DNA of 64,000 nt, from assembly GCF_010500245.1 (NCBI RefSeq), contig NZ_JAAGOX010000054.1, forward strand, positions 1 to 64,000, read 5' to 3'. A program made the position numbers and the translations under genes. Positions 4,277 through 20,739 of this stretch are shown here, one piece after another. Below the pieces are notes generated by a model that saw nothing but the letters and a program-made list of their open reading frames with translations, did not search any database and was not told where the DNA came from. Each line of letters begins with the position of its first letter. Positions within the stretch are counted from its first letter, which is position 1. The DNA is from Ruegeria sp. PrR005. GTDB lineage: Bacteria; Pseudomonadota; Alphaproteobacteria; Rhodobacterales; Rhodobacteraceae.

Positions 4277-5569
4277 CTACCGGTTTAACCTGTCCAACAG
4301 GCGATAGGCCCCGATGGTCAGCGCCACGCCTGCGCTTCTGAGTGAATGAAACGGAATGGGCCGCACCGGCGTGACCGGGAAATCCAGCGCATCCTCGGGC
4401 ACGCCCAGCGCCCAATCCGCCAGAATGGTGCCCATTACCGTGGCATTGGCCACGCCCCGGCCGTTGAAGCCCAGCCCCGCCATCACGTTCGGGCTCAGCC
4501 GGTGCAACCCGGGCAGGCTGTCGACCGTCATCGCCACATCACCGCCCCAGGCATGCACCCAATCCGCCGCGCGCAACTGGGGAAACAGCGCCTCCGCCGC
4601 CTGCCTCAGTTCCTGTTGCCTGCGCCGGGTGCCCGCCTCGCCCCGCGCGCCGCGCCCGCCCATGACAAACCGCCCGTCCGCCGTCTTGCGGTAGTACTGG
4701 ATCAGCCGCCGCGTATCGGTCGGCGCGTGATCCTCGGGCAGGATCCCCCGGATCACATTGTCCGACAGCGGCGCCGTGGCGACCTGCACCGAGGTTACCG
4801 GCACCACCGAGCAGCCCAGCGCGCCACCAAAGGGGCCGGTATAGGCATTGGTGCAGACCAGCGCGCGCCGCGTCTTTACCTGGCCTTGCGCGGTGCGCAC
4901 CGTCACCCCGGTTCCCTCGTCCTCGAACCCGATGGCCCGGCTATGACCATGGAGATCCGCGCCAGCGTGGATCGCCGCCTGCGCCAGTCCCAGCGCATAG
5001 TTCAAAGGGTGGATATTGCCGCCGCGCCGGTCGATCACCGCGCCCAGATAAGCCTCGGCCCCGACCAGCCGCGCAGTTTCAGCCGCGTCCAGGTCCTCAT
5101 AATTGGCACCATGCGCCCGCCACTGGCGCGCGATCTCGCGCAGCATGGCCAGCCCGCGCGTGTTGGTCGCCGTGCGCAGAAACCCGACAGGGCGCGCATC
5201 GCAGTCGATCCCGTGCCGCGCGATCAGGTCGAAGACCAGCCGCCCGCCATCGCCCCAGCGTGCCACCATCCGCCGCCCCAGATCCGCGCCGAACCGGGCG
5301 ACGAGGTCGTCCGGGTCGGGTTTCAGCGCCGGGTTGACCTGACCGCCATTGCGCCCCGATGCGCCCCAGCCCGGCGTCTCGGCCTCCAGCAGCACAACCT
5401 GCTGCCCCGCCTCGGCCAGATGCAACGCCGCCGACAGCCCGGTAAAGCCTCCGCCGACGATTACCACATCCGCCTCGGTCGCACCCGCCAACGGCGGGCA
5501 GTCCGGAGCGGTATGCGCGGTCGCGGTCCATAGACTGTCGGCCAGCGCCGCGCGTTCGTTTTCGATCAT
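4277..5569 (-). CDS. FAD-dependent oxidoreductase, DAO family
   Basis: A 430-residue D-amino-acid-oxidase-fold flavoprotein with the dinucleotide motif ADVVIVGGGFTGLSAALHLAEAG near residue 33 and an ASGRNGGQVNP stretch typical of gamma-glutamylputrescine oxidase (PuuB/OrdL)-like enzymes. The C-terminal GLGFNGRGVANATVMG is the second FAD-contact motif. The start chosen is MIENERAAL (AGGA upstream). An in-frame extension to 5599 exists but is less likely. Such enzymes oxidise secondary or primary amines to imine plus peroxide. It is the first of a pair with the GMC gene after the permease genes. Confidence 0.8.
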   Translation of the reverse strand: MIENERAALADSLWTATAHTAPDCPPLAGATEADVVIVGGGFTGLSAALHLAEAGQQVVLLEAETPGWGASGRNGGQVNPALKPDPDDLVARFGADLGRRMVARWGDGGRLVFDLIARHGIDCDARPVGFLRTATNTRGLAMLREIARQWRAHGANYEDLDAAETARLVGAEAYLGAVIDRRGGNIHPLNYALGLAQAAIHAGADLHGHSRAIGFEDEGTGVTVRTAQGQVKTRRALVCTNAYTGPFGGALGCSVVPVTSVQVATAPLSDNVIRGILPEDHAPTDTRRLIQYYRKTADGRFVMGGRGARGEAGTRRRQQELRQAAEALFPQLRAADWVHAWGGDVAMTVDSLPGLHRLSPNVMAGLGFNGRGVANATVMGTILADWALGVPEDALDFPVTPVRPIPFHSLRSAGVALTIGAYRLLDRLNR

Positions 5570-5669
5570 TGCGTCATCCTGCACGAAGAGTGGCCACATC
5601 CATCACCGGACGTCGACTCGACGGCCGATGACCGACAGACCTTGCCACGAACCATCACCAACTGACCCA

Positions 5670-6497
5670 TCATTTCGATTTCGTCTTCTGCTGTCCAAAC
5701 ACCTGCGCCAGCACCATCATCCCCGTCGTCACCAGGATCATGATGGTCGAGATCGAGGCAATGGTCGGGTCGATCTGGTCGCGCAGCGCGTTGAACATGT
5801 TGCGCGTCAGGGTCGGGTTGTCGCCGCCCGAGACGAACATCGCCACCACCACCTCGTCAAACGAGGTGAGAAAGGACAAGAGCGCGCTCGTCACCACGGC
5901 AAAGCGGATCTGCGGCAATGTCACGGTCAGAAACGCCTTCCACCGCGGCGCGCCCAGGCTGCGGGCCGCCTCTTCCTGGCTCATGTCGAAGCTTTTCAGC
6001 GCCGAGCCGGTGACAATCACCACCAGCGGCAGTGCCAGCACCGTATGTGCCAGCACCAGCCCGGTTATCGTATAGAGGATCTGAAGCTGCACATAGGCGT
6101 AGAAGGCCCCGATCGCGACCAGCACCACCGGCACCATCATCGGCGTGATCATCAGCACGAAAGCCGCGCGGACAAACCGGATTTTCGAGCAATGCAGGCC
6201 ATAAGCCGCCAGCACGCCAATCGGTGTCGCCACCAGCATCGTCAGGAACGCCGCCTTGAACGAGGTGCGCGTTGCCAGCATCCACTCGGGCGAGCCGAAG
6301 TAATGGTCATACCAGCGCGTTGACCAGGTTTCGGGCGGAAACTCCAGATACTGGCTGTCCGAGAATGACATCGGCACGACGATCAACGTGGGTGTCACCA
6401 GCAGCACCATGGTGATCACCGCAATGACGTAGAGCCACAGGCGCTGGCCATGGGTGATCTGGGTCTCGGTCGCGGGGCTTTGGAACCAGCGCAGCAT
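5670..6497 (-). CDS. ABC transporter permease, PotC-like
   Basis: A 275-residue inner-membrane permease with about six hydrophobic segments and the cytoplasmic EAA loop EEAARSLGAPRWKAFLTVTLP that docks the ATPase. Sequence and gene order match the PotC subunit of spermidine/putrescine-type importers. Its ATG overlaps the stop of the preceding permease as TGATG (one base), so the two are translationally coupled. The substrate is probably a polyamine or other small cationic amine, inferred from family only. Confidence 0.88.
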   Translation of the reverse strand: MLRWFQSPATETQITHGQRLWLYVIAVITMVLLVTPTLIVVPMSFSDSQYLEFPPETWSTRWYDHYFGSPEWMLATRTSFKAAFLTMLVATPIGVLAAYGLHCSKIRFVRAAFVLMITPMMVPVVLVAIGAFYAYVQLQILYTITGLVLAHTVLALPLVVIVTGSALKSFDMSQEEAARSLGAPRWKAFLTVTLPQIRFAVVTSALLSFLTSFDEVVVAMFVSGGDNPTLTRNMFNALRDQIDPTIASISTIMILVTTGMMVLAQVFGQQKTKSK

Positions 6498-7381
6498 CAG
6501 TGCCCTCCCCCGGTCATCTTCTCAAGGTTCAAAAAGCGCGAGGCAATCCACAGGATCACCATGGTCGAGACCAGCAGAACCACGCCCAGCGCGCTTGCCG
6601 CCCCCCAGTTCACGAACAGCTCGATATTGGACACGATCTTCATCGACACCATGATCACCTTGCCGCCGCCCAGCACCGCCGGGGTAACAAAGAAGCCAAG
6701 GCAGAGGATGAACACCATCAACGACCCGGCAAAAAGACCCGGCAGGGTCAGCGGAAAGAACACCGTCCAGAAGGCCCGGCGCGGGCTGGCGCCCAGGTTC
6801 GCGGCCGCCTTCATCAGGTCGCGGTCAATCGCCTTCATCGCGCCATAGACCGGCAGGATCAGAAACGGCAGCATGATATGCACCATGCCGATCAGCGTGC
6901 CGGTCATGTTGTGCACCATCTTGATCGGCTCGTCCCACAGCCCCAGCGAGATCGCCCATTCATTCACCAGCCCGCGCTTTTGCAACAGCACCAGCCAGGC
7001 ATAGGTGCGCACCAGAAGCGAGGTCCAGAACGGCAACAGCACCGTGATCAGGCACAGGTTGGCGATCCGGTTGGGCAGGCCCGCGATGAAATAGGCCAGC
7101 GGATAGCCGATCAGGATGCACAGGCCCGTGGTCAGGAAACTAACCTCGAACGTGGTCTGAAAGATGCGGGCATAGGATTTCCGCTTCAGCATCCGCTCGT
7201 AGTTTTCCAGCGAGAACGTGCCGTCCGCCCCGATGAACGAGACATAGAACAGCCAGCCCACCGGAATGACCAGAATGACAAGGATCAGCAGGATCGCGGG
7301 CGAGCCGAGACCAAAAAGCTTCATCCGCTCCAGCCACTCGTCCCGCCTCAACCCCGCCTCGTTGGTGCGTACCGCCTCCAT
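6497..7381 (-). CDS. ABC transporter permease, PotB-like
   Basis: A 294-residue permease with about six membrane segments and an EAA-type loop (MKAAANLGASPRRAFWTVFFPLTLPG). It is the partner of the PotC-like subunit. It starts one base after the ATPase stop codon and ends overlapping the next permease, so the ATPase and both permeases form one tight unit. The N-terminal about 25 residues are cytosolic and charged, as usual for PotB. Confidence 0.88.
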   Translation of the reverse strand: MEAVRTNEAGLRRDEWLERMKLFGLGSPAILLILVILVIPVGWLFYVSFIGADGTFSLENYERMLKRKSYARIFQTTFEVSFLTTGLCILIGYPLAYFIAGLPNRIANLCLITVLLPFWTSLLVRTYAWLVLLQKRGLVNEWAISLGLWDEPIKMVHNMTGTLIGMVHIMLPFLILPVYGAMKAIDRDLMKAAANLGASPRRAFWTVFFPLTLPGLFAGSLMVFILCLGFFVTPAVLGGGKVIMVSMKIVSNIELFVNWGAASALGVVLLVSTMVILWIASRFLNLEKMTGGGH

Positions 7382-7382
7382 C

Positions 7383-8486
7383 CTAGGCCTCGCTTCCGTC
7401 GATCAGCACCGTATCTTCGGGTGCCAGGCACAGGGTCAGCGCCTCGCCCACCGCTGGCAGGGCGGTGACATTGGCGCCCCGCATGGCGCCGCGCAGCACG
7501 ATCTGCGCCCCATTGGCCAGCGCCGCATGCAGCAGGAAACTGTCGCCCTGATAGACCACCTCGGTCGCGGTGGCGGCAAAGTTGTTGACCCCCTCGCGCG
7601 GCCCCTCGCGCGACAGCACCACCCGTTCCGGGCGGATCATCAACAGCAGGCTGGCCGCCTCGGGCGGCGGGCTGTCATGCAACAGCGGCGTTCCGTCGAA
7701 CAGGATAGCCGCCCCGTTGCGCGTCACCGGCAAAAAGGTGGATTCCCCGATGAAATCCGCCACGAAGCGGTTGGCGGGCCGCTCGTACAGGTCGCGCGGC
7801 GTGGCCAGCTGCATGATCCGCCCATGGTTCACCACCGCGATCCGGTCGGACATGGTCAGCGCCTCGCGCTGGTCATGGGTGACATAGACCGTGGTCATGC
7901 CCAGTTTCTCATGCAGGTGCCGCAATTCGATCTGCATCTGGTCGCGCAGCTTCTTGTCCAGCGCCGACAGCGGCTCGTCCATCAACAGGATGCGCGGCTC
8001 GAACACGATGGCGCGGGCCACGGCGACACGCTGGCGCTGGCCGCCCGATAGCTGGTCGATCCGCCGCTCGCCAAACCCGCCCAGCTGCACGGTATCCAGC
8101 GCCGCCTCGACGCGGGCGGCGATCTCGGATTTGGGCACCTTGCGCAGCTTCAGCGGGTACCCCACATTGCCCGCCACCGTCATATGTGGGAACAGCGCAT
8201 AGCTCTGAAAGGTCATGCCCACATCGCGCAGATGCGGCGGCGTGCGGATCACCTCGCGCTCGCCGAATTTCAGACTGCCGCAATCGGGCCGGGTGAACCC
8301 CGCCAGCACCATCAACAGCGTCGTCTTGCCCGACCCCGACGGGCCCAAAAGCGTCAGGAACTCGCCACTCTGCACCTCAAGCGACACGTCGTTCAGCGCA
8401 TGTACCGGACCATAGGTCTTGGTCACGTTCCGGACCGAGATCGGCAGGGCTTCGTTGGTTCTGGAGGTCAAGACAAACCCTCGCAT
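7383..8486 (-). CDS. ABC transporter ATPase, PotA-like
   Basis: A 367-residue nucleotide-binding subunit. It has Walker A GPSGSGKTT (about 47-55), Q-loop FQSYALFPHMTV, signature LSGGQRQRVAVARA, Walker B RILLMDEPLSALD and the switch histidine in TVYVTHDQ. A C-terminal TOBE-like regulatory domain follows, as in PotA/FbpC ATPases. ATG 8486 is preferred over the in-frame TTG 18 bp upstream. It powers the polyamine-type importer made by the neighbouring permease and binding-protein genes. Confidence 0.9.
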   Translation of the reverse strand: MRGFVLTSRTNEALPISVRNVTKTYGPVHALNDVSLEVQSGEFLTLLGPSGSGKTTLLMVLAGFTRPDCGSLKFGEREVIRTPPHLRDVGMTFQSYALFPHMTVAGNVGYPLKLRKVPKSEIAARVEAALDTVQLGGFGERRIDQLSGGQRQRVAVARAIVFEPRILLMDEPLSALDKKLRDQMQIELRHLHEKLGMTTVYVTHDQREALTMSDRIAVVNHGRIMQLATPRDLYERPANRFVADFIGESTFLPVTRNGAAILFDGTPLLHDSPPPEAASLLLMIRPERVVLSREGPREGVNNFAATATEVVYQGDSFLLHAALANGAQIVLRGAMRGANVTALPAVGEALTLCLAPEDTVLIDGSEA

Positions 8487-8504
8487 TCTTCGTTCGAGAA
8501 ACAA

Positions 8505-8524
8505 GCGGGCGCCGCAGCGCCCGC
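8505..8524 (-). terminator. GC hairpin between binding-protein and ATPase genes
   Basis: On the minus strand, GCGGGCG-CTGCGG-CGCCCGC is followed by TTGTTTCTC in the 61-bp gap after the solute-binding-protein gene. Such intercistronic hairpins usually partly terminate, or protect the upstream mRNA, so the binding protein is made in excess. Confidence 0.6.
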
Positions 8525-8547
8525 CCTTGAATGGCAGGAAACCCGCC

Positions 8548-9588
8548 TCACTCGGTCAGCATTTCCTGATACATCTCGGCCGCGATGGTCTCCCACTTGG
8601 CATACCAGTCCAGCGAGACCGGCAGCTGCATCGCCGCGTTATCCGGCGACGAGGGCAAGCCGGCCGCCACATCGGCGGTGATCTCACCGGTCTCATAGGC
8701 CGCCTTGTTGGTCGGCCCATAGGTGATGTATTTCGGCAGATCGTCCTGATACTCGGGTTTCGAGATCTCGTTCAGGAACATCATCGCCGTATCGCGGTTC
8801 GGCGCGCCCTTGGGCACCGCGAAACAGTCGTAGTCGAGCAGCGCCTGGTTGAAGCTATAGGCGACCTTGGCGCCGTCCTTGGCGGCATTGTCGAACCGGC
8901 CGTTCCAACCGGTGGTCATGTCGACCTCGCCATCCTTCATCAACTGCGCATGCTGTGCGCCCGAGGTCCAGAAGACCGAGATATGCGGCTTCAGCTCGCG
9001 GATCTTGTCGATCGCGCGTTCGATCCCCTCTTCGCTGTCGAGCACGCTATAGACATCGCCGGGCGCGACGCCATCGGCCATCAGCGCCCCTTCCAGCGCG
9101 CCCGCCACCTTGCCGCGATAGGCGCGTGTGCCGGGGAACTTCTCGACATCCCAGAAATCGGCCCAGCTCTGCGGTCCGTTCTCGCCATAGGTGTTGGTGT
9201 TCCAGGCATAGACGGTCGAGAACACATCGCCGCCGATGCAGTAATCGGTGTAAAGACCGGGATAGAAGGTCGAGACGTCGATCACGTTATAGTCGAGCTT
9301 CTCCAGCAGCCCCTCGGCCGCAGCCCGCGCCGCAGAACCCGAACCGCTGGCGACGATATCCAGCGTCACCTGCCCCGAGCTGACCTGAAGCCGCACATCG
9401 GACATGCCGCCATAGGTCTCCTGCTTGACCTCGATGCCTGTATTGGCGGCGGCGGGTTCAAACAGCGCCTTGCTCTGCGCCTCCTGATACGAGCCGCCCC
9501 AGGACGCGATGGTCACGCTCTTACCCTGCGCAAAGGCACCCGTCGCCATGACAGCGGCCGTGATCGTCAGAATTGTTCTCGTTTTCAT
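8548..9588 (-). CDS. Periplasmic solute-binding protein, PotD-like (polyamine type)
   Basis: A 346-residue extracytoplasmic binding protein. The start is ATG 9588, behind a strong GGGAGGAAGC ribosome site, and gives a clear signal peptide ending at AFAQ. The mature start (GKSVTIASWGGSYQEAQSKALFEPAAANTGIEVKQET) is typical of the PotD/PotF and related spermidine/putrescine ABC family. It heads the transporter operon. About 190 bp without a gene separates it from the upstream oxidoreductase. That gap may carry a promoter of its own, although I recognise none with confidence. Confidence 0.88.
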   Translation of the reverse strand: MKTRTILTITAAVMATGAFAQGKSVTIASWGGSYQEAQSKALFEPAAANTGIEVKQETYGGMSDVRLQVSSGQVTLDIVASGSGSAARAAAEGLLEKLDYNVIDVSTFYPGLYTDYCIGGDVFSTVYAWNTNTYGENGPQSWADFWDVEKFPGTRAYRGKVAGALEGALMADGVAPGDVYSVLDSEEGIERAIDKIRELKPHISVFWTSGAQHAQLMKDGEVDMTTGWNGRFDNAAKDGAKVAYSFNQALLDYDCFAVPKGAPNRDTAMMFLNEISKPEYQDDLPKYITYGPTNKAAYETGEITADVAAGLPSSPDNAAMQLPVSLDWYAKWETIAAEMYQEMLTE

Positions 9589-9782
9589 TGGCTTCCTCCC
9601 TTTGGTGTTTTCCGGGTCCTGCCCTTGTCTCCGGCAGGCAGCGGGCAATTCGCCCAAGTCATCTTTCCCCTACCGCGATGGTGCGGGCACCACTGCGGCA
9701 AGTGATCCTCGAATCCCAAACATTGGTTTCGATCCGTTAATACCGGGGCCAGCGCGGCACAGGCGCCGCCCTGCCCGGCGCG

Positions 9783-11090
9783 TCAGGTCATCTGCAAAGC
9801 CTTTCGAAACTGTCGTTGATCCTTCCAGCGATACCAGGCCACCGCCGCAGGCAGGAACCAGGGCTTGCCGCGATAGAAGGGCCGGGTGGGAAAGGGCAGA
9901 CCGTCGAAACCGGTTTGTCCCTCGGCCAGGCCCAGCACCTTTTGCCCCGCGCGCATGCCCAGATAGGGCGCCATCGACACGCCCGATCCGCAATAGCCCA
10001 TGGCGTAATGAATACCGTCCTGCACCCCGGTATGGGCCAACTCGTCGAAACTGTAGGCGACCGTGCCGCTCCAGGCATGGCTCAGCGCCACACCCTCAAG
10101 CTGGGGAAAGATGCGGCACATGTCCTGCCTGAGCCGGGTCGCCCCGGCCAGCGCCGTGGTTTCCGAGGCCGAGACGCGTCCTCCGAACAGAACCCGCCGC
10201 CGGTCGGGCGAGGCGCGATAATAATAGACCACCTTGCAGGTGTCGCTGGCGATCCGGTCGCCGGGGAACAGTTCGTCAATGGTCGCCTCGGGCAGCTCCT
10301 CGGTGGCGATGATATAGCTGCCGATCGGGATCACCCGGCGCTGCAACCAGGGCGTCAATGCGGTGGTATAGCCATTGGTGGCCACGATCACGTCCCGCGC
10401 CTCGACCACGCCCTTGGCGGTCTCGACCCGGAACTCCGACCCGTTGCGCGATATCCCCTGCACCCGGCACTGGCCCACAACCTGCGCCCCGGCCCCGAGG
10501 GCCAGACGCAGCAATTCGCGGTGAAACTTGCCCGGATGCAGCGAGCAATGGGCCGAAAACACGACACCGCCGAAATAGGCATCCGTCCCCAACTGGCGGC
10601 GCTGCTCGGCGCGCGGCACGGCAAAGCTCTCGATCCCTTCCTGCTGGCGCAGCGTCTCGGCATCGCGCGCCAACTCCTCGTAATGGCCCGGCGTATGCGC
10701 CGCATGAAACCGCCCGACCCGGCGGAAATCGCAATCAAGCCCTTCGCGGGAAACAAACTCGCCGATCCAGCGCAGCGCGTTGGCGCCCTCGGCCCGGATG
10801 CCGCGCGCCCGCTCAAACCCGAACTTCGCGGTCAGTTTCTCCAGCGAGGGTTTCACACTGGTGCTGATCTGGCCGCCATTGCGGCTGCTGCATCCGTAAC
10901 CCGGATCCTCGGCATCGACGACCAGCGTCGAGCGACCGCCGCGCGCCGTGGTCAGCGCCGCGCTCAGCCCGGTATAGCCCGCCCCGACAATCAGCACATC
11001 GACCCTGGCCAATGGCCGCTCCTGCAAGGTCGGCATCGGGCCGACCTGATCGTGCCAGAATGGCGTCTGCCTGATGCTCGAAAGTGGCAT
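9783..11090 (-). CDS. FAD-dependent oxidoreductase, PuuB/OrdL-like
   Basis: A 435-residue DAO-fold flavoprotein with VDVLIVGAGYTGLSAALTTARGG (about 28-50) and CSSRNGGQISTSVKPS, plus the C-terminal GYCGSGVSMAPYLGM motif. This pattern is shared with gamma-glutamylputrescine oxidoreductase and related amine oxidases. The start MPLSSIRQTPFWHDQ was chosen because the upstream 30 in-frame residues are not protein-like. It is the first gene of the minus-strand run that continues into the PotDABC-like transporter, and it has a MocR-type site about 90 bp upstream. It probably oxidises the imported amine. Confidence 0.8.
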   Translation of the reverse strand: MPLSSIRQTPFWHDQVGPMPTLQERPLARVDVLIVGAGYTGLSAALTTARGGRSTLVVDAEDPGYGCSSRNGGQISTSVKPSLEKLTAKFGFERARGIRAEGANALRWIGEFVSREGLDCDFRRVGRFHAAHTPGHYEELARDAETLRQQEGIESFAVPRAEQRRQLGTDAYFGGVVFSAHCSLHPGKFHRELLRLALGAGAQVVGQCRVQGISRNGSEFRVETAKGVVEARDVIVATNGYTTALTPWLQRRVIPIGSYIIATEELPEATIDELFPGDRIASDTCKVVYYYRASPDRRRVLFGGRVSASETTALAGATRLRQDMCRIFPQLEGVALSHAWSGTVAYSFDELAHTGVQDGIHYAMGYCGSGVSMAPYLGMRAGQKVLGLAEGQTGFDGLPFPTRPFYRGKPWFLPAAVAWYRWKDQRQFRKALQMT

Positions 11091-11180
11091 TTGCTCGACC
11101 GCGATGCTCCCTTCAGCCGCGGCAGGACATGCCCCACCCGCTGGCCTCGATGGAAACGCTAGGCCAGTATTGGCACACAA

Positions 11181-11214
11181 TTCATATCCAATATCACAAA
11201 AACGTCATACCAAT
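11181..11214 (-). promoter_or_regulatory. Candidate MocR operator, copy A
   Basis: Read on the minus strand it is ATTGGTATGACG, 12 bases, then TGGATATGAA. The opposite strand shows two direct half-sites, TCATA(T)CCAAT and TCATACCAAT, spaced about two helical turns. It lies just after the mocR stop codon and 91 bp upstream of the FAD oxidoreductase start. A second copy with identical spacing lies at 12706-12739. Confidence 0.65.
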
Positions 11215-11215
11215 C

Positions 11216-12691
11216 CTAACGCAGGGCCGGCAGCTCACGGAGGATGCCCATGCCACGCGCGATATCCTCGGGCGCAGCACAGCCAAAGCCAAAGACCAGA
11301 CCGGATTGCGAAACTGGCGACAGACAATAGCGCCCCAGCGGCGCCAGGGTCACCCCCTGCTCGGCCGCCTGCGCAACCACCTCCGCCTCGTCCACGCTCC
11401 GTTCCAGAAATGCGGGCGTGTGAAACCCGCTGGTCGTCTCTTGCAGGCGGATGCTCTCGGGCAGGCCGCGCGCCGCCTCCAGCAAGGCCTCATAACGCGC
11501 CTTGTAAAGCTGCCGCATCAGCCGGATATGCGTGGCGAAATGCCCCTCGTCCATGAACTCGGCCACGATCGCCTGTGTCGCGGTCGACGGCCCGCTGGCC
11601 CAGGTATTGAACATGCCATCAAAGGCCGCGACCATCCGCTCGGGCACCAGCACGAACCCCAGCCGCAGCGACGGGAACAGCGATTTCGAGAAGGTGCCGA
11701 CATACAGAACCCGCCCATTGGCGTCGATACTGTGCAGCGCCGGGCGCGGCGCGTTGCCAAAGTAGAACTCGCCGTCGTAATCATCCTCGATGATCAGCGC
11801 CTGGGCCTGTTCGGCGGCCTGCAACAGCTCCAGCCGCCGGGGCAGCGACATGACATGGCCCAGCGGCTGCTGGTGCGAGGGCGTGACAAAGGCCAGCCGG
11901 AAATGCGGCGCCTTGGCCAGCCCGTCAGACACCACCATGCCCTGCGCATCCACCTCCACCGGCACCAGCTCGGCGCCCTCGGATAACAGCGCATTGCGCG
12001 CACCCGAGGCGCCGGGATTCTCCATCCAGACCCGGTCGCCCGGATTGAGCAGCAACCGCCCGATCAGCGAAAACGCATGTTGCGCGCCCGAGGTGATGAA
12101 CACCTGCTCGGGGTCGCAACGAATGCCCTTGAGCGCGCTCAGATGGGCGGCAATCGCCCGGCGCAGCGCGGCCAGCCCCTTGGGCTGGCCATAGCCCATG
12201 ACGTCGCCGCGCCCGCCGCGCAGGTGCCGCGCCGACAGCCGCGCCCAATGCGCCATCGGAAAGGCATCGAGCGCCGGCAGCGCGGTGACAAAGGCCCGCG
12301 GCTTGTGCGGCAGCCAGGCCCGCCGTGCATAGGCGGGTTCGGCATGGCTGATGACATAAGACAGCCTGGGCTTACGACCGGCACTGACCGCCCCCTGGCT
12401 GGGGGCGGTTACGCTCTGGTCCTCCAGCGTCTCGCTGACATAGGTCCCGGCCCCGATGCGCGACACCAGCATGCCTTCGGCCACCAGCCGGTCGATGGCG
12501 TCGATCACCGTGGTGCGCGACACACCCACCTCCTTGGCCAGCGTCCGCGTCGCCGGCAGCCGCTCACCCGCGCGCAGCGCGCCGGACAGGATCATGTCGC
12601 GCAGCGCCATGTAGAGCTGAACGCTGACACTGCGCCTGAGTGTCCGGTCCAGCCGGATCGAGGACAACAAGGCGCCTGCGGCATGTTTCAC
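11216..12691 (-). CDS. MocR-family transcriptional regulator (GntR HTH + aminotransferase-like domain)
   Basis: A 491-residue regulator. A winged-helix GntR domain (about 20-90; LPATRTLAKEVGVSRTTVIDAIDRLVAEGML) is linked to a fold-type-I aminotransferase-like domain. The PLP-binding lysine is in VGTFSKSLFPSLRLGF (Lys336), with the usual SGAQHAFSLI and DDYDGEFYF stretches. Members sense amines or amino acids through PLP. The GTG start is fixed by an ideal AAGGAGG six bases upstream. It lies between the oxidoreductase/transporter operon and a divergent enolase gene. Two copies of a bipartite motif, one before each, probably mark its targets. Confidence 0.9.
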   Translation of the reverse strand: MKHAAGALLSSIRLDRTLRRSVSVQLYMALRDMILSGALRAGERLPATRTLAKEVGVSRTTVIDAIDRLVAEGMLVSRIGAGTYVSETLEDQSVTAPSQGAVSAGRKPRLSYVISHAEPAYARRAWLPHKPRAFVTALPALDAFPMAHWARLSARHLRGGRGDVMGYGQPKGLAALRRAIAAHLSALKGIRCDPEQVFITSGAQHAFSLIGRLLLNPGDRVWMENPGASGARNALLSEGAELVPVEVDAQGMVVSDGLAKAPHFRLAFVTPSHQQPLGHVMSLPRRLELLQAAEQAQALIIEDDYDGEFYFGNAPRPALHSIDANGRVLYVGTFSKSLFPSLRLGFVLVPERMVAAFDGMFNTWASGPSTATQAIVAEFMDEGHFATHIRLMRQLYKARYEALLEAARGLPESIRLQETTSGFHTPAFLERSVDEAEVVAQAAEQGVTLAPLGRYCLSPVSQSGLVFGFGCAAPEDIARGMGILRELPALR

Positions 12692-12705
12692 GGGCGGCCT
12701 CCTTA

Positions 12706-12739
12706 ATTGGTCTGGCGAAAATGTCGAAATGGATATACC
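12706..12739 (+). promoter_or_regulatory. Candidate MocR operator, copy B
   Basis: ATTGGTCTGGCG, 12 bases, then TGGATATACC. It matches copy A at 10 of 12 and 8 of 10 bases with exactly the same 12-base spacer. It sits in the mocR/enolase divergent region, 72 bp before the enolase ATG and next to the mocR ribosome site, so it could control both directions. Confidence 0.65.
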
Positions 12740-12810
12740 TGCCAGCCCGATTTTTCTCCAGCCTTTTTACAACCCCCGTCCGCCCCGGTCGGCCAAACCC
12801 GGAAAATCAC

Positions 12811-13914
12811 ATGAAGCTTGCCAAACTCGAAACCTTCTCCACCCCATATGTCTGCTTCGTCCGGGCCACCGCCGAGGACGGCGCGCAGGGCTGGGGGCAG
12901 GTCGCCCCCTACTACGCCGACATCACCGCGCAGGTGCTGCACCGGCAGGTCGCACCCTACGCGCTTGGGATGGACTGCACCGACATTGACGCCATGCTCG
13001 ACATCGTGCGCGACCGCGAGCACAAGTTCCCCGGCTCCTACCTGCGCCGGGCGATGGGCGGGGTCGACACAGCGCTCTGGGACATGAACGGGCGGCGCGC
13101 GGGCAAACCGGTCTGCGAACTGATCGGCGGCACGCCCGGACCGGTGCGCGCCTATGGCTCGTCAATGAAGCGCGACATCACGCCGGTGGACGAGGCCGCG
13201 CGGCTTGCGCGCATCCGCGATGAGCAGGGTTTTGACGCCTTCAAGTTCCGCATCGGCGCCGAGGTCGGCCGCGACCAGGACGAATGGCCCGGCCGCACCG
13301 AAGAGATCGTGCCGACCATGCGCCGCGCCATGGGCGACGATGTGGCGCTGCTCGTCGATGCCAATTCCTGCTACTCCCCCGCCCGCGCCATCGAGGTCGG
13401 GCGGATGCTGGAACAGCACGGCATCTCGCATTACGAGGAACCCTGCCCCTATTGGGAGTTCGAGCAGACGCGTGAAGTGACCGAGACGCTCGACATCGAC
13501 GTCACCGGCGGCGAGCAGGACTGCATGATGGAACGCTGGCAGACGATGATCCGCGACCGCGTGGTCGACGTACTCCAGCCCGACATCTGCTACATCGGCG
13601 GCATTGCGCGCACCCTGCGCGTGGCCCGCATGGCCGAGGCTTCCGGGATGCCGATTACGCCGCACGCGGCCAACCTGTCGATGGTGACGCTTTTCACCAT
13701 GCACCTCTTGCGCGCGATCCCCAATGCCGGGAAATACTTGGAGTTTTCGATCGAGGGGCTGGATTACTATCCCTGGCAACAGGGGCTGTTCCTGACCGAT
13801 CCCTATGTCATCACCGATGGGCAGGCCACGGTGACAGATACCCCCGGCTGGGGGGTCGAGGTCAACCCCGACTGGCTGGCCCGCTCTGCCTATCAGGTCA
13901 GCGAAATGCCCTGA
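12811..13914 (+). CDS. Mandelate racemase/muconate lactonizing enzyme family protein
   Basis: A 367-residue enolase-superfamily enzyme with an N-terminal capping domain and a C-terminal barrel. Catalytic positions visible are Lys145-x-Arg147 (KFR) on strand 2, metal ligands Asp183 (VDAN), Glu209 (HYEEP) and Glu235 (GGEQ), and an Asp258/His285 dyad (DICYIGG, PHAAN). This is the mandelate racemase subgroup, which abstracts a proton alpha to a carboxylate and gives racemisation, epimerisation or dehydration. The substrate cannot be assigned. It is divergent from mocR and probably co-regulated with the minus-strand uptake and oxidation genes. Confidence 0.85.
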   Translation: MKLAKLETFSTPYVCFVRATAEDGAQGWGQVAPYYADITAQVLHRQVAPYALGMDCTDIDAMLDIVRDREHKFPGSYLRRAMGGVDTALWDMNGRRAGKPVCELIGGTPGPVRAYGSSMKRDITPVDEAARLARIRDEQGFDAFKFRIGAEVGRDQDEWPGRTEEIVPTMRRAMGDDVALLVDANSCYSPARAIEVGRMLEQHGISHYEEPCPYWEFEQTREVTETLDIDVTGGEQDCMMERWQTMIRDRVVDVLQPDICYIGGIARTLRVARMAEASGMPITPHAANLSMVTLFTMHLLRAIPNAGKYLEFSIEGLDYYPWQQGLFLTDPYVITDGQATVTDTPGWGVEVNPDWLARSAYQVSEMP

Positions 13915-13920
13915 CCGCGG

Positions 13921-15351
13921 TCACCAGATCTGCCCGAACCCCGCCGGACGGTCGGGCGCCGGGTGCGGCCCCGCGCCCGTCAGTTGTGCCGCCAGCCCCG
14001 CCGCCAGATCGCGCACCAGCGCCAGCGCGGCGCTCAGTTCGCTATTGGCAAAGCTCTCAAGAACCCGCATGGCCTCTGCCGCGCAACCGCCCTGCACAGC
14101 CAGTTCCGCCACCTTCAGATGCGCCGCGACCAACGCGTCCAGACGCACCTCGCGGCGGGCAAAGGCGCCGTGCACCGGCGCCAGCGCCCCCTCACCTGTC
14201 AACTGCATCAGGTACATCAACCGCTTGCAGTCCTGGAACGCCCCGACCGTGGTCTCATGCCGCTGCGGCACCAGCGACACCGTGTCCCTGCCGCCGCTTA
14301 CCGCCTTGCGCAGGTCCATGAACCGATGCGACTCGCCCGTGGTCAGATAGCGGTGCGGCCCGTATTCCGCCGGGATACTTTCCTGCCCCAGGAACACCGG
14401 CGAAAACGGCGCCGACAGCGCGCCGCAGGCGGCGTGCCACATAGGCACCAGCCCGGGGTTTGCTGCACGCACCAGCGGCACCACCTGCCCGTATCCCGCC
14501 GTGTCGCCGGTCAATCTCTCGGTGCGAATGGCCCAGATCATATCCTCCAGCCCGATCTTCTCGGGCCGGGTGGCGCGTGCCTGCATCTCCGCCTCGATCC
14601 AGCGGATGCCCTCCCAACGCCCCTTGCCGTCGCCATAGATCGCGTTCGCATCAAACGGCCCCTGATCATACCACCCCTGCTCGCGCGCAAAGCTGACGAA
14701 ATTCGGCGGGTAAAGGAAATCGGGGTGATCCGGCTCATCCACCGGCACCTCCAACACATAACCCGGGCGCGAGGCGCGTATGCTGTCGGGACCCAGCCGC
14801 TCGGCCACCCACAGCCCCTGCCCGCCCGCGAACTGGATCATCACCCAGGCCTCGTCGGCATCGGCAAAGAGATGCGAGTTGCCGCCATAGCTGGCCTCGC
14901 CATGCTCGGCGATCAGCGCCGCACAGAGTTCCACCGCTCCACGCGCGCTGGTGGCGCGCTCCAGTACCGCGCGCGCCAGATCGCTATAGGTGAACCCGCG
15001 CTGGTCCCGGGGCGTCATCTCGCGCAGTTCGGCCCGCGAGGTCGACCAGACATCGCGCACCGCAACGCCCGCTGCGTTCACCCCGCCATTGGTGATCGGC
15101 GCCGGAACGCCCAGGTAGTAAGAATAGCTCACCCGCATATGGCGCAGCGTATGCGCCACCTGCGGCACCGCGATGCGCTGCCCCGGCATGTCGGCGCCCG
15201 GCCCGACGCCCACCTCGATGGTCGCGCCCTCGGGGTGATCGGCGGCGGGCACTATCTCCAGCCAGTGCGACGATGGTTCATCGCCGTAGCCTGCCAGCCA
15301 GGCATGCCCCGTCCGGCTGTGGTTCCGTCCCACATAGATTGCATAGCTCAC
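13921..15351 (-). CDS. C69-type Ntn hydrolase (dipeptidase/amidase family)
   Basis: A 476-residue protein recognisable as peptidase family C69/U34 by GVNAAGVAVRDVWSTSRAEL, LERATSARGAVELCAALIAEHGEASYGG and DEAWVMIQFAGGQGLWVAERL. The GTG start at 15351 shares GTGA with the amidohydrolase stop, so the two are translationally coupled. With this start the second residue is Ser (fMet-Ser-Tyr-Ala). Met removal would expose an N-terminal serine where classical C69 members have cysteine. The likely role is hydrolysis of a peptide or amide bond in a compound imported by the Dpp-like transporter. The exact substrate is unknown. Confidence 0.75.
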   Translation of the reverse strand: MSYAIYVGRNHSRTGHAWLAGYGDEPSSHWLEIVPAADHPEGATIEVGVGPGADMPGQRIAVPQVAHTLRHMRVSYSYYLGVPAPITNGGVNAAGVAVRDVWSTSRAELREMTPRDQRGFTYSDLARAVLERATSARGAVELCAALIAEHGEASYGGNSHLFADADEAWVMIQFAGGQGLWVAERLGPDSIRASRPGYVLEVPVDEPDHPDFLYPPNFVSFAREQGWYDQGPFDANAIYGDGKGRWEGIRWIEAEMQARATRPEKIGLEDMIWAIRTERLTGDTAGYGQVVPLVRAANPGLVPMWHAACGALSAPFSPVFLGQESIPAEYGPHRYLTTGESHRFMDLRKAVSGGRDTVSLVPQRHETTVGAFQDCKRLMYLMQLTGEGALAPVHGAFARREVRLDALVAAHLKVAELAVQGGCAAEAMRVLESFANSELSAALALVRDLAAGLAAQLTGAGPHPAPDRPAGFGQIW

Positions 15352-16958
15352 GCCGGTTCTCCAACCTTTGGCCGTTGGGACAGATACACCCGCTCCCCCC
15401 GCCGCCATGTTTCGCTGACCCCGATCGCACCAATGGTTTCGGGCCGTACCAACGGGTTATCGTCCAGAATGACCAGATCCGCCAGCTTGCCCACCTCGAT
15501 CGAGCCGCGCTCGTGCTCGCGGAACACCTGCCAGGCGGCGTCGATCGTGTGGGCCCGCAGCGCGGTCATCACATCCACCCGCTGTTCCGGCCCCAGCACC
15601 CGGCCCGACCGGGTGCGCCGATTGACCGTCGTCTCGACCAGCCGCAAGGGCCGCGTCGGCGTCACCGAAGCGTCGTTATGGATGGTGAACCGCACCTTTT
15701 CGGCCTTGGCCCACCCGGTGGGAGAGATATGCACCGCCCGCGCGGGCCCCAGGATCTCGTCATGATGCTGGTCGCCCCAGACCTCGACATGCGCCGGAAA
15801 GAAGCTCACCGTCACGCCCAGCGCGGCACAGCGCGCCATCTGGTCGCGCCGCATCACCTGCCCGTGGATGATCGTGTGCCGGTGATCGGCGCGCGGATGC
15901 TCGGCCAGCGCCGCCGCCACCGCATCCAGGAACATGTCCGAGGCCGCATCGCCATTGCAATGGGTATGGATCTGGAACCCCAGCCGGTGCAGTCTGCACA
16001 CCTCGGCCATCAGGGTATCGCGGTCGATATAGGCCAGCCCGTACTCGTCGCTGCCCAGATACGGCTCGGTCAGAAGCGCGGTGCGCATCAGGAAAGACCC
16101 ATCCGCCAACAGCTTGCGCGGTCCCAGCGCAATCGCCCCGTTGCCTGGCCACTGCGCGCCCAGCCCTTCACGCGAAAACGCGGGCTCGATCTCGGCCACC
16201 GGCAGCAGGATCAGGTCAATCCCCGGATCGCCGCCCGCAGCCACACCGGCAAAAAGCTCCAAGAGCGGTAAAGCAGTCCAGGCATTCTGCGCCAGTGTCA
16301 CCCCCTGCGCCAGGTACTCCGCCCGCGCCGCCGCGAAACAGCGCGCAAAGGCATCCGCATCCAACAGGAAATGCGTATCCCCCATCTCGCCCATCGCCGA
16401 CAGGCCCTCGATCCCGCCGGTCAGCCGACCGGACCCGTCGCGCAGGTACCGCCCGCCCTCGGGGTCGGGTGTGCCCTCCCCGATTCCCTGCCGCGCCAGC
16501 GCCGCCGAATTGGCCACCCCGCAATGGCCCGAGGCATGGATGACCCAGATCGGGTGGTCGCGCGACACCGTGTCGAGCTCGTCGCGCGTCGGCAACCGCC
16601 GCTCGGCCAGCCGGCGTTCGTCCAGCGCCGCGCCCATCACCCAGTCGCCCACCGGTGTCCGCGCCACCCGGGCCGCGAGCCGGTGAAACACCTCCGCCAG
16701 ATCGACGCTTTCGGACAGATCGGCCCGCAACAGGCGCACCATCGCCGAATCCGGGAAATGCCCGTGCGGATCGATGAACGCCGGCAGCAACGTGCGCCCG
16801 GCCAGATCGTGTTGCACCGCCTCGGGCAGGCTGCGGCGCAGCGCCTCCAGCGACCCGGTGGCAACGATCCGGTCGCCCCGGATCGCCACCGCTTCGAGCC
16901 GGGTATCGCTGGCATCCATGCTCAGGATCGGGCCACCGGCAAAGATCACCCCGGTCAT
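15348..16958 (-). CDS. Amidohydrolase, YtcJ-like (amidohydrolase 3 family)
   Basis: A 536-residue metal-dependent amidohydrolase. The metal-binding HGH is in TLLPAFIDPHGHFPDS. Later ligand regions are IHTHCNGDAASDMFLDAV and HRHTIIHGQVM, and the C-terminal beta-sandwich motif is GSIEVGKLADLVILDDNPL. The family removes or opens amide bonds, often in N-acyl or formyl compounds. ATG 16958 overlaps the preceding ATPase stop as ATGA, and its own stop overlaps the C69 gene as GTGA, so it is embedded in one coupled operon. It is probably cytosolic, since no signal peptide is seen. Confidence 0.88.
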   Translation of the reverse strand: MTGVIFAGGPILSMDASDTRLEAVAIRGDRIVATGSLEALRRSLPEAVQHDLAGRTLLPAFIDPHGHFPDSAMVRLLRADLSESVDLAEVFHRLAARVARTPVGDWVMGAALDERRLAERRLPTRDELDTVSRDHPIWVIHASGHCGVANSAALARQGIGEGTPDPEGGRYLRDGSGRLTGGIEGLSAMGEMGDTHFLLDADAFARCFAAARAEYLAQGVTLAQNAWTALPLLELFAGVAAGGDPGIDLILLPVAEIEPAFSREGLGAQWPGNGAIALGPRKLLADGSFLMRTALLTEPYLGSDEYGLAYIDRDTLMAEVCRLHRLGFQIHTHCNGDAASDMFLDAVAAALAEHPRADHRHTIIHGQVMRRDQMARCAALGVTVSFFPAHVEVWGDQHHDEILGPARAVHISPTGWAKAEKVRFTIHNDASVTPTRPLRLVETTVNRRTRSGRVLGPEQRVDVMTALRAHTIDAAWQVFREHERGSIEVGKLADLVILDDNPLVRPETIGAIGVSETWRRGERVYLSQRPKVGEPA

Positions 16959-17938
16959 GACGCGGCCGCCGCTGTGTCCCAGCCCGCCGGGAAATGGCAC
17001 CGATGCGCCCCGCCCTTCGCCGCCTGCCAGCGCGGCACCTCGGTCGCGCAGCGCGGCTGTGCAAACGGGCAACGGGTGTGAAACTCGCAGCCCTTCGGCC
17101 GCCGCAGGATGCTCGGCGGCTCGCCCTGCAACTCGACCCGCATCAGCTGCGCGTCGGGGTCGGGTTCCGGGTTCGCCGCCAACAGCGCCAGCGTATAGGG
17201 GTGCTGCGGGGCCGCGAACACCGCCTCGGTCTCGCCCTCCTCGACCAGCTTGCCCAGGTACATGATCCCCACCCGGTCGGTGATATGGCGCACCACGTTC
17301 AGGTTGTGGGTGATGATCATGATCGCCAGCCCCAGCTCGTCCTGCAACCGCGCCAGCAGGTTCAGCATCTCGCCCTGGATTGACACATCGAGCCCCGCCG
17401 TCGGCTCATCGGCAATGAGCAGCCGGGGGCTCAGCGCCAGCGCCCGCGCCACGCCCACCCGTCGCGCCTGCCCGCCCGAGATCTGATAGGGATAGCGCGC
17501 CGCGAATTCCGGCGGCAGGCCGACCATGGCCAGCAATCGCCGTGCCTCCGCATCCAGATCGCGCTCGCGCATCCCCTGGATGCGGAACGGTTCGGTGATC
17601 AGAGACTTGACCGACAATCGCGGCGACAGCGAGCCGATCGGATCCTGAAACATCATCACGATCTCGCGCCGCAGCGGCCGGAACGCGCCCTCGACCAGCC
17701 CGCGCAACTCCTGCCCGCGATAGAGGATCGAGCCTTCGCTGGCATGGTGCAGCCCCGCCACCGCGCGCGCCAGCGTGGTCTTACCCGAGCCGCTCTCACC
17801 AACGATGCCATAGGTCTTGCCCTCCTCGACATCCAGGCTGACGCCCGACACAGCATCGACGCTCCCGGCCGAGGAGAACACGCCGCCCCGGACCCGGAAC
17901 CGCACCACGACATCGCGGATCTCTAGCAGCGCGCTCAT
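16955..17938 (-). CDS. Oligopeptide/dipeptide ABC transporter ATPase, DppF-like
   Basis: A 327-residue nucleotide-binding protein with Walker A GESGSGKTT, Q-loop MFQDPIGSLSPRLSV, signature ISGGQARRVGVARA (an Ala where Gln is more usual in the signature), Walker B LLIADEPTAGLD and ITHN. The C-terminal OppD/F cysteine motif is GCEFHTRCPFAQPRC, which in relatives binds an Fe-S cluster. The start MSALLEIRD overlaps the preceding stop as ATGA. The 69 residues upstream in frame are not protein-like. It pairs with the DppD-like ATPase. Confidence 0.9.
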   Translation of the reverse strand: MSALLEIRDVVVRFRVRGGVFSSAGSVDAVSGVSLDVEEGKTYGIVGESGSGKTTLARAVAGLHHASEGSILYRGQELRGLVEGAFRPLRREIVMMFQDPIGSLSPRLSVKSLITEPFRIQGMRERDLDAEARRLLAMVGLPPEFAARYPYQISGGQARRVGVARALALSPRLLIADEPTAGLDVSIQGEMLNLLARLQDELGLAIMIITHNLNVVRHITDRVGIMYLGKLVEEGETEAVFAAPQHPYTLALLAANPEPDPDAQLMRVELQGEPPSILRRPKGCEFHTRCPFAQPRCATEVPRWQAAKGGAHRCHFPAGWDTAAAAS

Positions 17939-18909
17939 GCGGTTTCCCTTTCCGTGATCAGGTGACAGGCGGCGCGTTGGCCGTCTCCGGCCAGGGCCAT
18001 CGCAGGGCGCGCGGCACAGGCCGCATGGCGCCTCTCGCAGCGGTCGGCAAAGATGCAGCCGCCCGGCAGGTTGACTAGATCGGGGATGTTGCCGGGAATG
18101 GTCGGCAAAACCCGGGTCTTGACCTTGATATGGCCCGGATCGCACTCCAGCAGCGCCCGCGTATAGGGATGCGCCGGGGCATGGAACACATCGCGCACCG
18201 ATCCGGTCTCCACCACCTCGCCCGCGTACATCACCACCACCTCGTCACAAAGCTCGGCAATCACCCCCAGATGGTGCGAGATGAACAGCACGCCGCATCC
18301 GATCTCGTCCTGCAATTCTCGCAGCCGCTTGATGATCTCCACCTCCAGCGTCGCATCCAGTGCCGTGGTCGGCTCATCCGCGATCAATAGCGCCGGTTTC
18401 GCCATCAGCGCCATGGCAATGGCGATCCGCTGGCGCATCCCGCCCGAAAACTCGAACGGATACTGGTTCAGCCGCGCCTCAGGGTCTGGAATGCCCACCA
18501 GCGCCAGCATCCGTTCGGCGCGCTGCCGCTTCTCCGCCCGGCTCAGCCGCTCGCGGTACTGGATGTCCATCATCTGCCGCCCCACGGTCAGTACAGGGTT
18601 GTGGGTCTGCATCGGGTCCTGAAACACCATCGAGATCTGCGTCCCCCGCAGCGCGCGCATCTGCGCCTCGGTCTCGGCCAGCAGGTCACGTCCCTGAAAC
18701 CGCACCTCGCCCGCGCCGACCCGCGCATTGGGCGCCATCAGCCGGATGATCGCCGAGATCAGCGTGGACTTGCCACAGCCCGACTCCCCCACGATCCCCA
18801 CGATCTTGCCCTCGGGCACCATCATCGACACGTCGCGCAAGGCCCGCAACTCGCCGCGCGGCGTGCTGTATCCAACCGACAGGCCACGAATGTCCAGAAC
18901 CGCCATCAC
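17935..18909 (-). CDS. Oligopeptide/dipeptide ABC transporter ATPase, DppD-like
   Basis: A 324-residue ATPase with Walker A GESGCGKST, FQDPMQTHNPVLTV, signature FSGGMRQRIAIAMA and Walker B LLIADEPTTALD. The C-terminal GGCIFADRCERRHAAC motif is characteristic of OppD/DppD. The start is a tandem GTGATG: GTG 18909 gives a 4-bp overlap with the permease stop, and ATG 18906 a 1-bp overlap. Either way it is coupled to the upstream permease. Confidence 0.9.
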   Translation of the reverse strand: MMAVLDIRGLSVGYSTPRGELRALRDVSMMVPEGKIVGIVGESGCGKSTLISAIIRLMAPNARVGAGEVRFQGRDLLAETEAQMRALRGTQISMVFQDPMQTHNPVLTVGRQMMDIQYRERLSRAEKRQRAERMLALVGIPDPEARLNQYPFEFSGGMRQRIAIAMALMAKPALLIADEPTTALDATLEVEIIKRLRELQDEIGCGVLFISHHLGVIAELCDEVVVMYAGEVVETGSVRDVFHAPAHPYTRALLECDPGHIKVKTRVLPTIPGNIPDLVNLPGGCIFADRCERRHAACAARPAMALAGDGQRAACHLITERETA

Positions 18910-19784
18910 TTGCCCCCCTTGCCGCGCAGTTTCGGATCGACCACATCCCGCAGCGCCTCGCCCAGAAAGGTGAAGCCGACCGTGGTCAGAATAAGCGGGA
19001 TGCCCCCCGCGATGATCAGCCAGGGCGTGTTGCGGATCAGGTTGTAGCCATCGTTCAAGAGCGATCCCCAGGACGGAGTCGGCGGCTTCACCCCCATGCC
19101 GAGAAAGGACAGCCCCGCCTCCAGCCCCACCACCGTGGGGATATCCATCGCCGCCAGCACCGCCAGCGGCCCCAGTACGTTGGGCAGCAGATGCACAGCC
19201 ATGATCCGGGGCGTCGAGGCGCCCAGCGATTTCTCGGCAGTGATGAATTCGGCCTCTTTCAGCGACTGGGTCAGGGTGCGCACCACGCGCCCATAGGTCG
19301 GGATCGAGGTCACCATGATCACCAGGATCACCGTGTTCAGGCTGGGCCCGACCAGCGCCACCACCGCCAGCGCGAACATCACGGTGGGAAACGACCGGAT
19401 GGTGTCGAACAAGAGCACGATCAGATTGTCCAGCCAGCGCGGCCCATAGCCCGCGATCATCCCCAGCAGCAGGCCGAAGAATATCGCCCCGCCGATGGTC
19501 GGCAGCGCCACCTGCAAGGCCACGCGCCCGCCCCAGATCACCCGGGAAAACGTGTCGCGCCCCAGCTGGTCGGTGCCCATCAGATGCGCTGCACTCGGCC
19601 CCTGCAACCGGTCCGGCACATTGAGCGCAATCGGGTCATAAGGCGCAATCCAGGGCGCCAGCACCGCCGAGGCCAGGATCGCCAGCACGATGATCAGCCC
19701 GGCCAGCCCCAGCGGATCGCGCACCAGATGATACAGGATCTCTCCCAACTCGGACCGGGGTTTGGGCAAGCTTGCGTCGGTCAT
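18906..19784 (-). CDS. Dipeptide-type ABC transporter permease, DppC-like
   Basis: A 292-residue permease. It has the N-terminal OppC segment (LVRDPLGLAGLIIVLAILAS, then APYDP and LMGTDQLGRDTFSRVIWGGR) and about six membrane segments. The EAA region lies in EKSLGASTPRIMAVHLLPN, and the motif GLSFLGMGVKPPTPSWGSLL closes it. ATG 19784 is preceded by GAGGGA and lies 10 bp after the DppB-like stop. Confidence 0.9.
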   Translation of the reverse strand: MTDASLPKPRSELGEILYHLVRDPLGLAGLIIVLAILASAVLAPWIAPYDPIALNVPDRLQGPSAAHLMGTDQLGRDTFSRVIWGGRVALQVALPTIGGAIFFGLLLGMIAGYGPRWLDNLIVLLFDTIRSFPTVMFALAVVALVGPSLNTVILVIMVTSIPTYGRVVRTLTQSLKEAEFITAEKSLGASTPRIMAVHLLPNVLGPLAVLAAMDIPTVVGLEAGLSFLGMGVKPPTPSWGSLLNDGYNLIRNTPWLIIAGGIPLILTTVGFTFLGEALRDVVDPKLRGKGGK

Positions 19785-19794
19785 GTCCGGTCCC

Positions 19795-20739
19795 TCATTT
19801 CCCGGCCCGGATCCGCGGATCCAGAATTGCGTTGACGATGTCGGCCAGCGTGGTCGAGGCGACAAAGATCAGGGTGGAAAACAGAACCGATCCCATCACC
19901 ACCGGGTAGTTGCGCGTGGTGATGCTGTCGATCACCAGCTTGCCCAGCCCGGGGCGCGAGAACACAATCTCGGTGAACACCGCCGCCGACAGCAAAAACC
20001 CCATGCCGACCCCGATCACCGTGACCGTGGGCAGGATGGCCAGCCGCAGCGCATAGCCAAAGACGATCTGCCGCTCGGGCAGGCCAAAGGCGCGCGCGGT
20101 GCGGATATGCCCCTCGCCCATCACTTCCAGCATCGAGGCCCGGACAAGCCGCGCGATATAGCCGACCCAGCTAAGCCCGATGGCAAGGCTCGGCAGCACC
20201 AGATGATGCAGCTGGTCGCCCCAGTTCCCCGCATCCCCCGCCCCGATGGCCGGAAACCATTGCAGCTTCACCGCAAAGATCAGCAGCGAGTAGAGCGACA
20301 CCACAAAGGCGGGCACCGCGATCACCGAGACCGACAGGATCCCGGTCAGCCGGTCGCCCAGCGAATTCCGATGGATGGCCGAGTAACAGCCCAGCGCGAT
20401 CCCCAACACCGCCGACCAGGTGATCGAAACCAGGATCAAGACCAGCGTATAGGGCACCTGCCCCAGCACGATTTCGCTCACCGGCCGGTTGGAAAACACA
20501 TCCATCCCCAGATCGCCGCGCAGCATATTGGCAAAGAACAGCCCGATCTGCACGACCAACGGCTGATCGAGCCCCATCCGCGCCTCAAGTGCCGCGCGCA
20601 TTTCAGGCGTGGCGCGCGGTCCCAGCATGGTGGACACCGGATCGCCCGGGATCATGTGAACGATCAGGAACAGCGAGGACACGGCCAGAACCGTAATCAC
20701 CGCCGCCAGACCGATCCGTTTTAAGATGAAGGACAGCAT
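19795..20739 (-). CDS. Dipeptide-type ABC transporter permease, DppB-like
   Basis: A 314-residue permease starting MLSFILKRIGLAAVITVLAVSS, with the IPGDPV motif, the LGxDVFSNRPVSEIV periplasmic loop and the EAA loop region RTARAFGLPERQIVFGYALR. About six membrane segments are visible. It forms the channel with the DppC-like subunit. A 75-bp gap with a strong hairpin separates it from the binding-protein gene upstream. Confidence 0.9.
   Translation of the reverse strand: MLSFILKRIGLAAVITVLAVSSLFLIVHMIPGDPVSTMLGPRATPEMRAALEARMGLDQPLVVQIGLFFANMLRGDLGMDVFSNRPVSEIVLGQVPYTLVLILVSITWSAVLGIALGCYSAIHRNSLGDRLTGILSVSVIAVPAFVVSLYSLLIFAVKLQWFPAIGAGDAGNWGDQLHHLVLPSLAIGLSWVGYIARLVRASMLEVMGEGHIRTARAFGLPERQIVFGYALRLAILPTVTVIGVGMGFLLSAAVFTEIVFSRPGLGKLVIDSITTRNYPVVMGSVLFSTLIFVASTTLADIVNAILDPRIRAGK

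Follow-up and report, generated by a model that had tools for sequence, protein, structure and literature searches.

A conserved three-box operator predicted to join a MocR-type regulator, an enolase-superfamily gene and an importer operon in Ruegeria and related bacteria

In the stretch of DNA analyzed here (the window, 64,000 nucleotides of Ruegeria sp. PrR005), a gene encoding a predicted MocR-type regulator lies between a divergent enolase-superfamily gene and an operon for an FAD-dependent oxidoreductase and an ABC importer (Table 1). Similar short sequences at either end of mocR raise the question of whether regulator, enzyme, and importer belong to one regulon. An earlier note on this DNA had described these sequences as twin MocR operators of the form ATTGGT(A/C)TG(A/G)CG-N12-TGGATAT(A/G), found twice only and at the expected places, and this count was borne out both in the window and in the 5.07-Mb genome. 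Exact matches of the bipartite motif lie at 11183-11214 (-) and 12706-12737 (+); at up to 3 mismatches, the window holds 2 matches against 0.01 expected, and none of 100 shuffled sequences reached 2. In the whole genome (5,069,803 bp), the bipartite motif recovered the two sites and one 3-mismatch match (none with a reversed-pattern control), and the three-box pattern defined below matched at these two sites only when up to 3 mismatches were allowed. A relaxed pattern, used to look for a wider regulon in the same genome, gave the same two sites and one poor match only. Operator 1 follows the mocR stop codon immediately and is oriented toward the FAD oxidoreductase/importer operon. Operator 2 is situated between mocR and the enolase gene; 15 bp separate it from the start codon of mocR, and 73 bp separate its box 2 from the enolase gene start.

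Table 1. Positions of the operators, promoter elements, and genes discussed (in the window unless a compared locus, with an L number, is named)
Feature	Position	Strand	Remarks
Operator 1	11169..11214	-	0 mismatches to three-box pattern
Operator 1, box 1	11206-11214	-	ATTGGTATG
Operator 1, box 2	11184-11192	-	ATTGGATAT
Operator 1, box 3, inverted	11169-11177	-	TGTGCCAAT
Operator 2	12706..12751	+	1 mismatch to three-box pattern; conserved in orthologous mocR/enolase intergenic regions
Operator 2, box 1	12706-12714	+	ATTGGTCTG
Operator 2, box 2	12728-12736	+	AATGGATAT
Operator 2, box 3, inverted, degenerate	12743-12751	+	CAGCCCGAT
-10-like TAGCGT	11156..11161	-	7 bp after operator 1 box 3; putative function
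Degenerate -10-like CAGCCT, enolase gene	12759..12764	+	same spacing from box 3; weak, putative
mocR, predicted regulator (GntR-type winged helix plus aminotransferase-like domain)	11216..12691	-	PF00392, PF00155, NCBIfam MocR/PdxR models
Enolase-superfamily enzyme (mandelate racemase/muconate lactonizing type)	12811..13914	+	PF13378, PF02746
FAD-dependent (DAO-type) oxidoreductase, first operon gene	9783..11090	-	PF01266; start could be further downstream
ABC substrate-binding protein	8548..9588	-	nearest solved relative MotA 5L9G, 4.6e-86
ABC importer ATPase and two permeases, polyamine type	5670..8504	-	NCBIfam potA subfamily above cut-off; PotB/PotC-like permeases
Second DAO-type FAD oxidoreductase	4277-5599	-	profile matches
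GMC/choline-dehydrogenase-like oxidoreductase	2644-4269	-	profile matches
Second enolase gene	L134 4699-5910	-	behind operator
Second enolase gene	L170 3160-4359	+	behind operator
Second enolase gene	L172 about 3021-4220	-	behind operator
Second enolase gene	L173 4780-5979	-	behind operator

For comparison, 80 loci with close relatives of the enolase (68-97% identical) were fetched, and the genes of the window were mapped onto each. An alignment of 73 sites from enolase loci revealed a three-box operator, ATTGGTCTG-N13-AATGGATAT-N6-CAGWCCAAT, with the consensus boxes ATTGGTMTG (box 1), AWTGGATAT (box 2), and CAGWCCAAT (box 3, inverted). The TGG cores of the direct boxes 1 and 2 are 22 bp apart, i.e., two helical turns; the spacer between these boxes is 13 bp, occasionally longer or shorter by 1 bp, that between boxes 2 and 3 is 6 bp, and box 3 amounts to box 1 in reverse complement. 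The boxes are kept across genera and the spacers are not: spacer positions carry 0.0-0.9 bits of information, most positions of boxes 1 and 2 carry 1.4-2 bits. Many Hoeflea-type loci have a mocR/enolase copy whose box 2 reads TTGGACCTTA, forming a near-perfect palindrome with box 3. Thus, the box cores of the bipartite motif are conserved, whereas the "R-CG" tail of its half-site 1 and its spacing of exactly 12 bases are not. The direct pair of half-sites two turns apart likewise stands, but the layout is not a twin one, given the third, inverted box, which the originally reported span (11181-12739) was too short to include at either operator.

Conservation at orthologous loci had been set beforehand as the test of the motif. 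We found the site at both positions in nearly every locus with mocR next to this enolase gene, and it is absent where the enolase gene has no mocR beside it. The three-box site occurs, at up to 5 mismatches of 23, in 51 of 53 mocR/enolase intergenic regions, in which the reversed pattern had at least 8. Just past mocR, 43 of 50 loci have the site at up to 3 mismatches (41 of them at 0-1; reversed control, at least 6), and in a further three the site is present with its spacing altered by 1 bp. As for the four remaining loci, the site is displaced to the transporter operon in one (L063), and in three the MocR is only about 50% identical and there is no downstream site. An intact adjacent mocR match was missing from 27 loci, of which 25 had nothing better than 8 mismatches; the two exceptions are loci in which mocR is cut by the contig end (L008) or was matched in fragments only (L075). 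A scan of 298 genomes of the family at up to 1 mismatch returned 15 matches (control, 0), all at these loci except for one unlinked site. In Ruegeria pomeroyi DSS-3, both operators are present on the megaplasmid, in the region of SPO_RS21750-21760 (locus SPO_RS21750-21790), where SPO_RS21755 encodes MocR.

Some of these records have peculiarities of their own. In L075 (titled Marinicella sp. W31), mocR at 8409-9960 was matched in several pieces, being either disrupted or misassembled, and the operators are intact. L063 belongs to a metagenome-assembled genome titled Mesoflavibacter, but the locus is of alphaproteobacterial type, and the title is suspect. In five loci without mocR (L056, L068, L072, L074, and L083), the GMC gene immediately precedes the enolase gene in the same orientation; thus, these two genes stay linked without the regulator.

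The operator also accompanies genes elsewhere. The unlinked site in the 298-genome scan lies in front of a second gene of the enolase superfamily, distinct from the first and encoding about 400 amino acids, and an orthologue of this gene with an upstream operator was found in three other unlinked cases (L170, L172, and L173). In Roseibium aggregatum, this second enolase gene adjoins mocR, which explains the third operator site of that locus. The family is rare (its proteins start about MQVIDxxELY): a wider search of 395 genomes added only two copies, with the operator at 2 and 4 mismatches, both in genomes with a MocR orthologue about 50% identical. Altogether, 7 of 7 copies found have the operator upstream, all 7 genomes encode a MocR orthologue, and the gene is almost always unlinked; it was not found in the genome of the window. 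In two genomes (L171 and L174), the GMC (choline-dehydrogenase-like) gene forms a unit of its own, each with its own operator. In many loci, the importer past mocR is a different, nonorthologous one with the same operator in front; in L016, L029, L038, L063, and similar loci, the replacement is a PotD-like system. These comparisons support the assignment of the enolase gene, the transporter operon, and, where present, the second enolase-type gene to one regulon. The view in the earlier note that the motif ties the enolase to the transporter functionally therefore holds as coregulation, within one regulon whose operator moves with its genes; a shared pathway and substrate we only infer.

How the operators might act can be approached from the promoters. 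At the transporter-side sites, a TANNNT sequence, plausibly the -10 element, follows box 3 at 7 bp (T, 100%; A, 93%; T, 95%), and the unlinked sites have the same 7-bp spacing. No -35 hexamer accompanies it: TTG was present in 0 of 43 sites at a spacing of 16-18 from TANNNT, and similarity to a -35 element was no better than in shuffled sequence. Because a -35 hexamer is lacking at normal spacing, the promoter looks activator dependent, box 2 covering the -35 region and box 3 falling within the spacer.

We therefore propose, with a probability of roughly 85%, that the sites are operators of the adjacent MocR, which is predicted to activate the catabolic units and repress its own gene; what the sequence comparison shows is the architecture of the sites, their conservation, their specificity to the regulon, and their linkage to mocR. 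The MocR proteins described in the literature recognize repeats, direct or mixed, at a distance of two or three turns; they often activate a divergent target while repressing themselves, and in PdxR the binding of pyridoxal phosphate (PLP) brings about a shift from direct to inverted repeats (PMC5320631). In the scheme proposed here, (i) MocR would bind the operator as a head-to-tail dimer and, by analogy with these proteins, (ii) the bound pair would be the direct or the inverted boxes, depending on the effector/PLP state, (iii) MocR would switch on both the oxidoreductase-transporter operon and the enolase gene, whose promoters lack a -35 element, and (iv) it would repress its own gene via operator 2. 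Operator 2, the mocR/enolase site, lies just before the start codon of mocR; this position suggests autorepression, and mocR itself is probably among the targets of the site. The inducer would be an amine-type substrate of the encoded uptake and oxidation pathway. Counting against the MocR explanation are the 4-mismatch site at the second enolase gene in one genome with a MocR about 50% identical, the three such loci that lack a downstream site, and the degenerate box 3 and -10 sequence of operator 2 in the window.

Alternatively, the same MocR could bind the same operator and repress every unit until an inducer releases it, the mode of action proposed for EnuR. This is unlikely but must be taken seriously. 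Box 3 lies between the -10 and -35 positions and box 2 covers the -35 position, a usual placement for a repressor, and EnuR of R. pomeroyi is a repressor with operators that overlap the promoter (PMC8739950). Conversely, the missing -35 hexamer leaves nothing for unaided polymerase, and most of the characterized MocR proteins listed in PMC5320631 activate their targets and repress themselves. The choice between activator and repressor, which the sequence does not decide, is the weakest step of the explanation; we favor an activator over an EnuR-like repressor by about 2:1.

MocR has an N-terminal GntR winged-helix domain (PF00392, 8.7e-19, residues 24-85) and a C-terminal class I aminotransferase-like domain (PF00155, 3.4e-27), with PdxR/GabR relatives in the PDB (4N0B and 4MGR), and, as regards the predicted binding of PLP through the conserved lysine, its sequence has the typical GTFSKSLFPSLRLGF segment. 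MocR/GabR operators consist of two to four TGG/TGT boxes at helical-turn spacing, and three such boxes, one of them inverted, are found here. The protein scores below the cut-offs of the NCBIfam rhizopine MocR model NF052281 (444.7 versus 650 bits) and of the EnuR/EhuR model (161.7 versus 480 bits), and the operator consensus found here differs from the ATTGT-n6-ACAAT operator of the latter. It scores above that of the PdxR model NF052282 (396 versus 320 bits). The name PdxR was nevertheless rejected and a PdxR function is not supported, as no B6-linked site was found and the genome's operators are the two of this locus only. Automatic NCBIfam naming would call the 11216-12691 protein PdxR, with nothing tying it to vitamin B6 synthesis. 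The genome encodes four further MocR-type proteins (27-38% identical), so that another regulator, for example one of these, might bind the sites. This is very improbable: no such site was found at the loci of the four paralogues, and across genomes the site follows this MocR and is missing from enolase loci that lack it.

It is harder still to credit that the motif is a sigma-factor promoter (-35 TTGGTC, 17 bp, -10 TGGATA) rather than an operator. The spacing of boxes 1 and 2 is ideal for -35 and -10 elements, but TGGATA resembles a -10 element poorly, and downstream of it there are two further elements, the inverted box 3 and the conserved TANNNT. A sigma-factor promoter would also be neither confined to one regulon nor dependent on the presence of mocR. 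Chance or recent-ancestry likeness of two AT-rich intergenic stretches in a GC-rich genome, conceivable as long as two sequences without a background were all that the earlier reader had, is refuted by the near-zero expectation in the window, the alignment (boxes conserved across genera, spacers not), the 298-genome scan, the locus counts, and the unlinked sites, where the same element precedes nonhomologous genes.

The proposed fit to known MocR binding modes is likewise upheld, with the third, inverted box as a refinement: the layout matches that of published MocR proteins (PMC5320631). As given in the main text of a survey of 761 MocR regulons, two direct boxes plus one inverted box is the most frequent motif structure (245 regulons), and the surveyed motif and the operator here share box order, a conserved TGG core, and helical-turn spacing. 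PdxR of Bacillus clausii and Corynebacterium glutamicum likewise uses mixed direct and inverted boxes, with the divergent target activated, the regulator gene repressed, and the choice of boxes changed by PLP (PMC5320631). PdxR targets vitamin B6 synthesis, whereas here the targets comprise an importer, flavoenzymes, and an enzyme of the enolase type, with no other operator in the genome. GabR of Bacillus subtilis has the same fold and domain order as MocR, and its divergon with autorepression and activation resembles the locus here; however, its sites are direct repeats, in contrast to direct plus inverted boxes, and the target genes differ (PMC5320631). EnuR, the ectoine regulator of R. pomeroyi, is a MocR/GabR protein from the same genus with an importer/catabolic cluster, but it acts as a repressor, and the consensus of its operators, ATTGTnnnnnnACAAT, forms an inverted repeat (PMC8739950), whereas TGG boxes with a direct pair occur here. 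The main text of the survey names no enolase/mandelate-racemase target, and its supplement or RegPrecise may list such a group; a literature search for a MocR regulon with mandelate racemase/enolase targets, including the DSS-3 locus, found nothing among the papers covered. The regulon may thus add a fresh case to the established MocR switch layout, with a motif that may already be listed in RegPrecise.

From position 11090 down to 2644, the operon encodes the FAD oxidoreductase (SPO_RS21760 in DSS-3), the ABC importer, the second FAD oxidoreductase, and the GMC oxidoreductase. The binding protein resembles MotA (PDB 5L9G), an opine-binding protein. A MotA-like binding protein, amine-oxidase-type flavoenzymes, and a dehydratase/racemase-type enolase together suggest an amine-linked hydroxy or sugar acid as the substrate, as a lead rather than a result. 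More tentatively, and at somewhat less than even odds, we envisage a MocR regulon not described before, devoted to some amine-containing compound that resembles a hydroxy or sugar acid. A single regulator would control FAD amine oxidases, a GMC dehydrogenase, importers that can replace one another, and two different enzymes of the enolase superfamily, the gene for one of which is often unlinked. The promoters would be composite and lack a -35 element, and the three-box operator, at a fixed distance from the -10 element, would switch between direct and inverted repeats.

For an enolase family whose PDB relatives (3T8Q [5e-197], 3U4F, 3TCS, and 3T9P) carry generic names only, the regulon provides a functional context, and it connects this family with an importer, three oxidoreductases, and a second family of enolases. 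Because the enolase shares a regulon with the importer, the search for its substrate is narrowed to compounds imported by this system. The prediction is directly testable in R. pomeroyi DSS-3, a strain that has served for EnuR work and carries both operators, and the fixed operator-to-minus-10 geometry without a -35 element offers a clean test case for transcription activation by MocR proteins.

Beyond the enolase gene, the window contains a convergent C69-peptidase-like gene, an amidohydrolase gene, and a dipeptide-type ABC importer (13921-20739); this block is common to L004, absent at the same place in DSS-3 and L005, and possibly a separate insertion. In DSS-3 (L180, 13186-17483), another MocR-type gene (SPO_RS21735), together with aldehyde dehydrogenase and epoxide hydrolase genes, adjoins the enolase gene.
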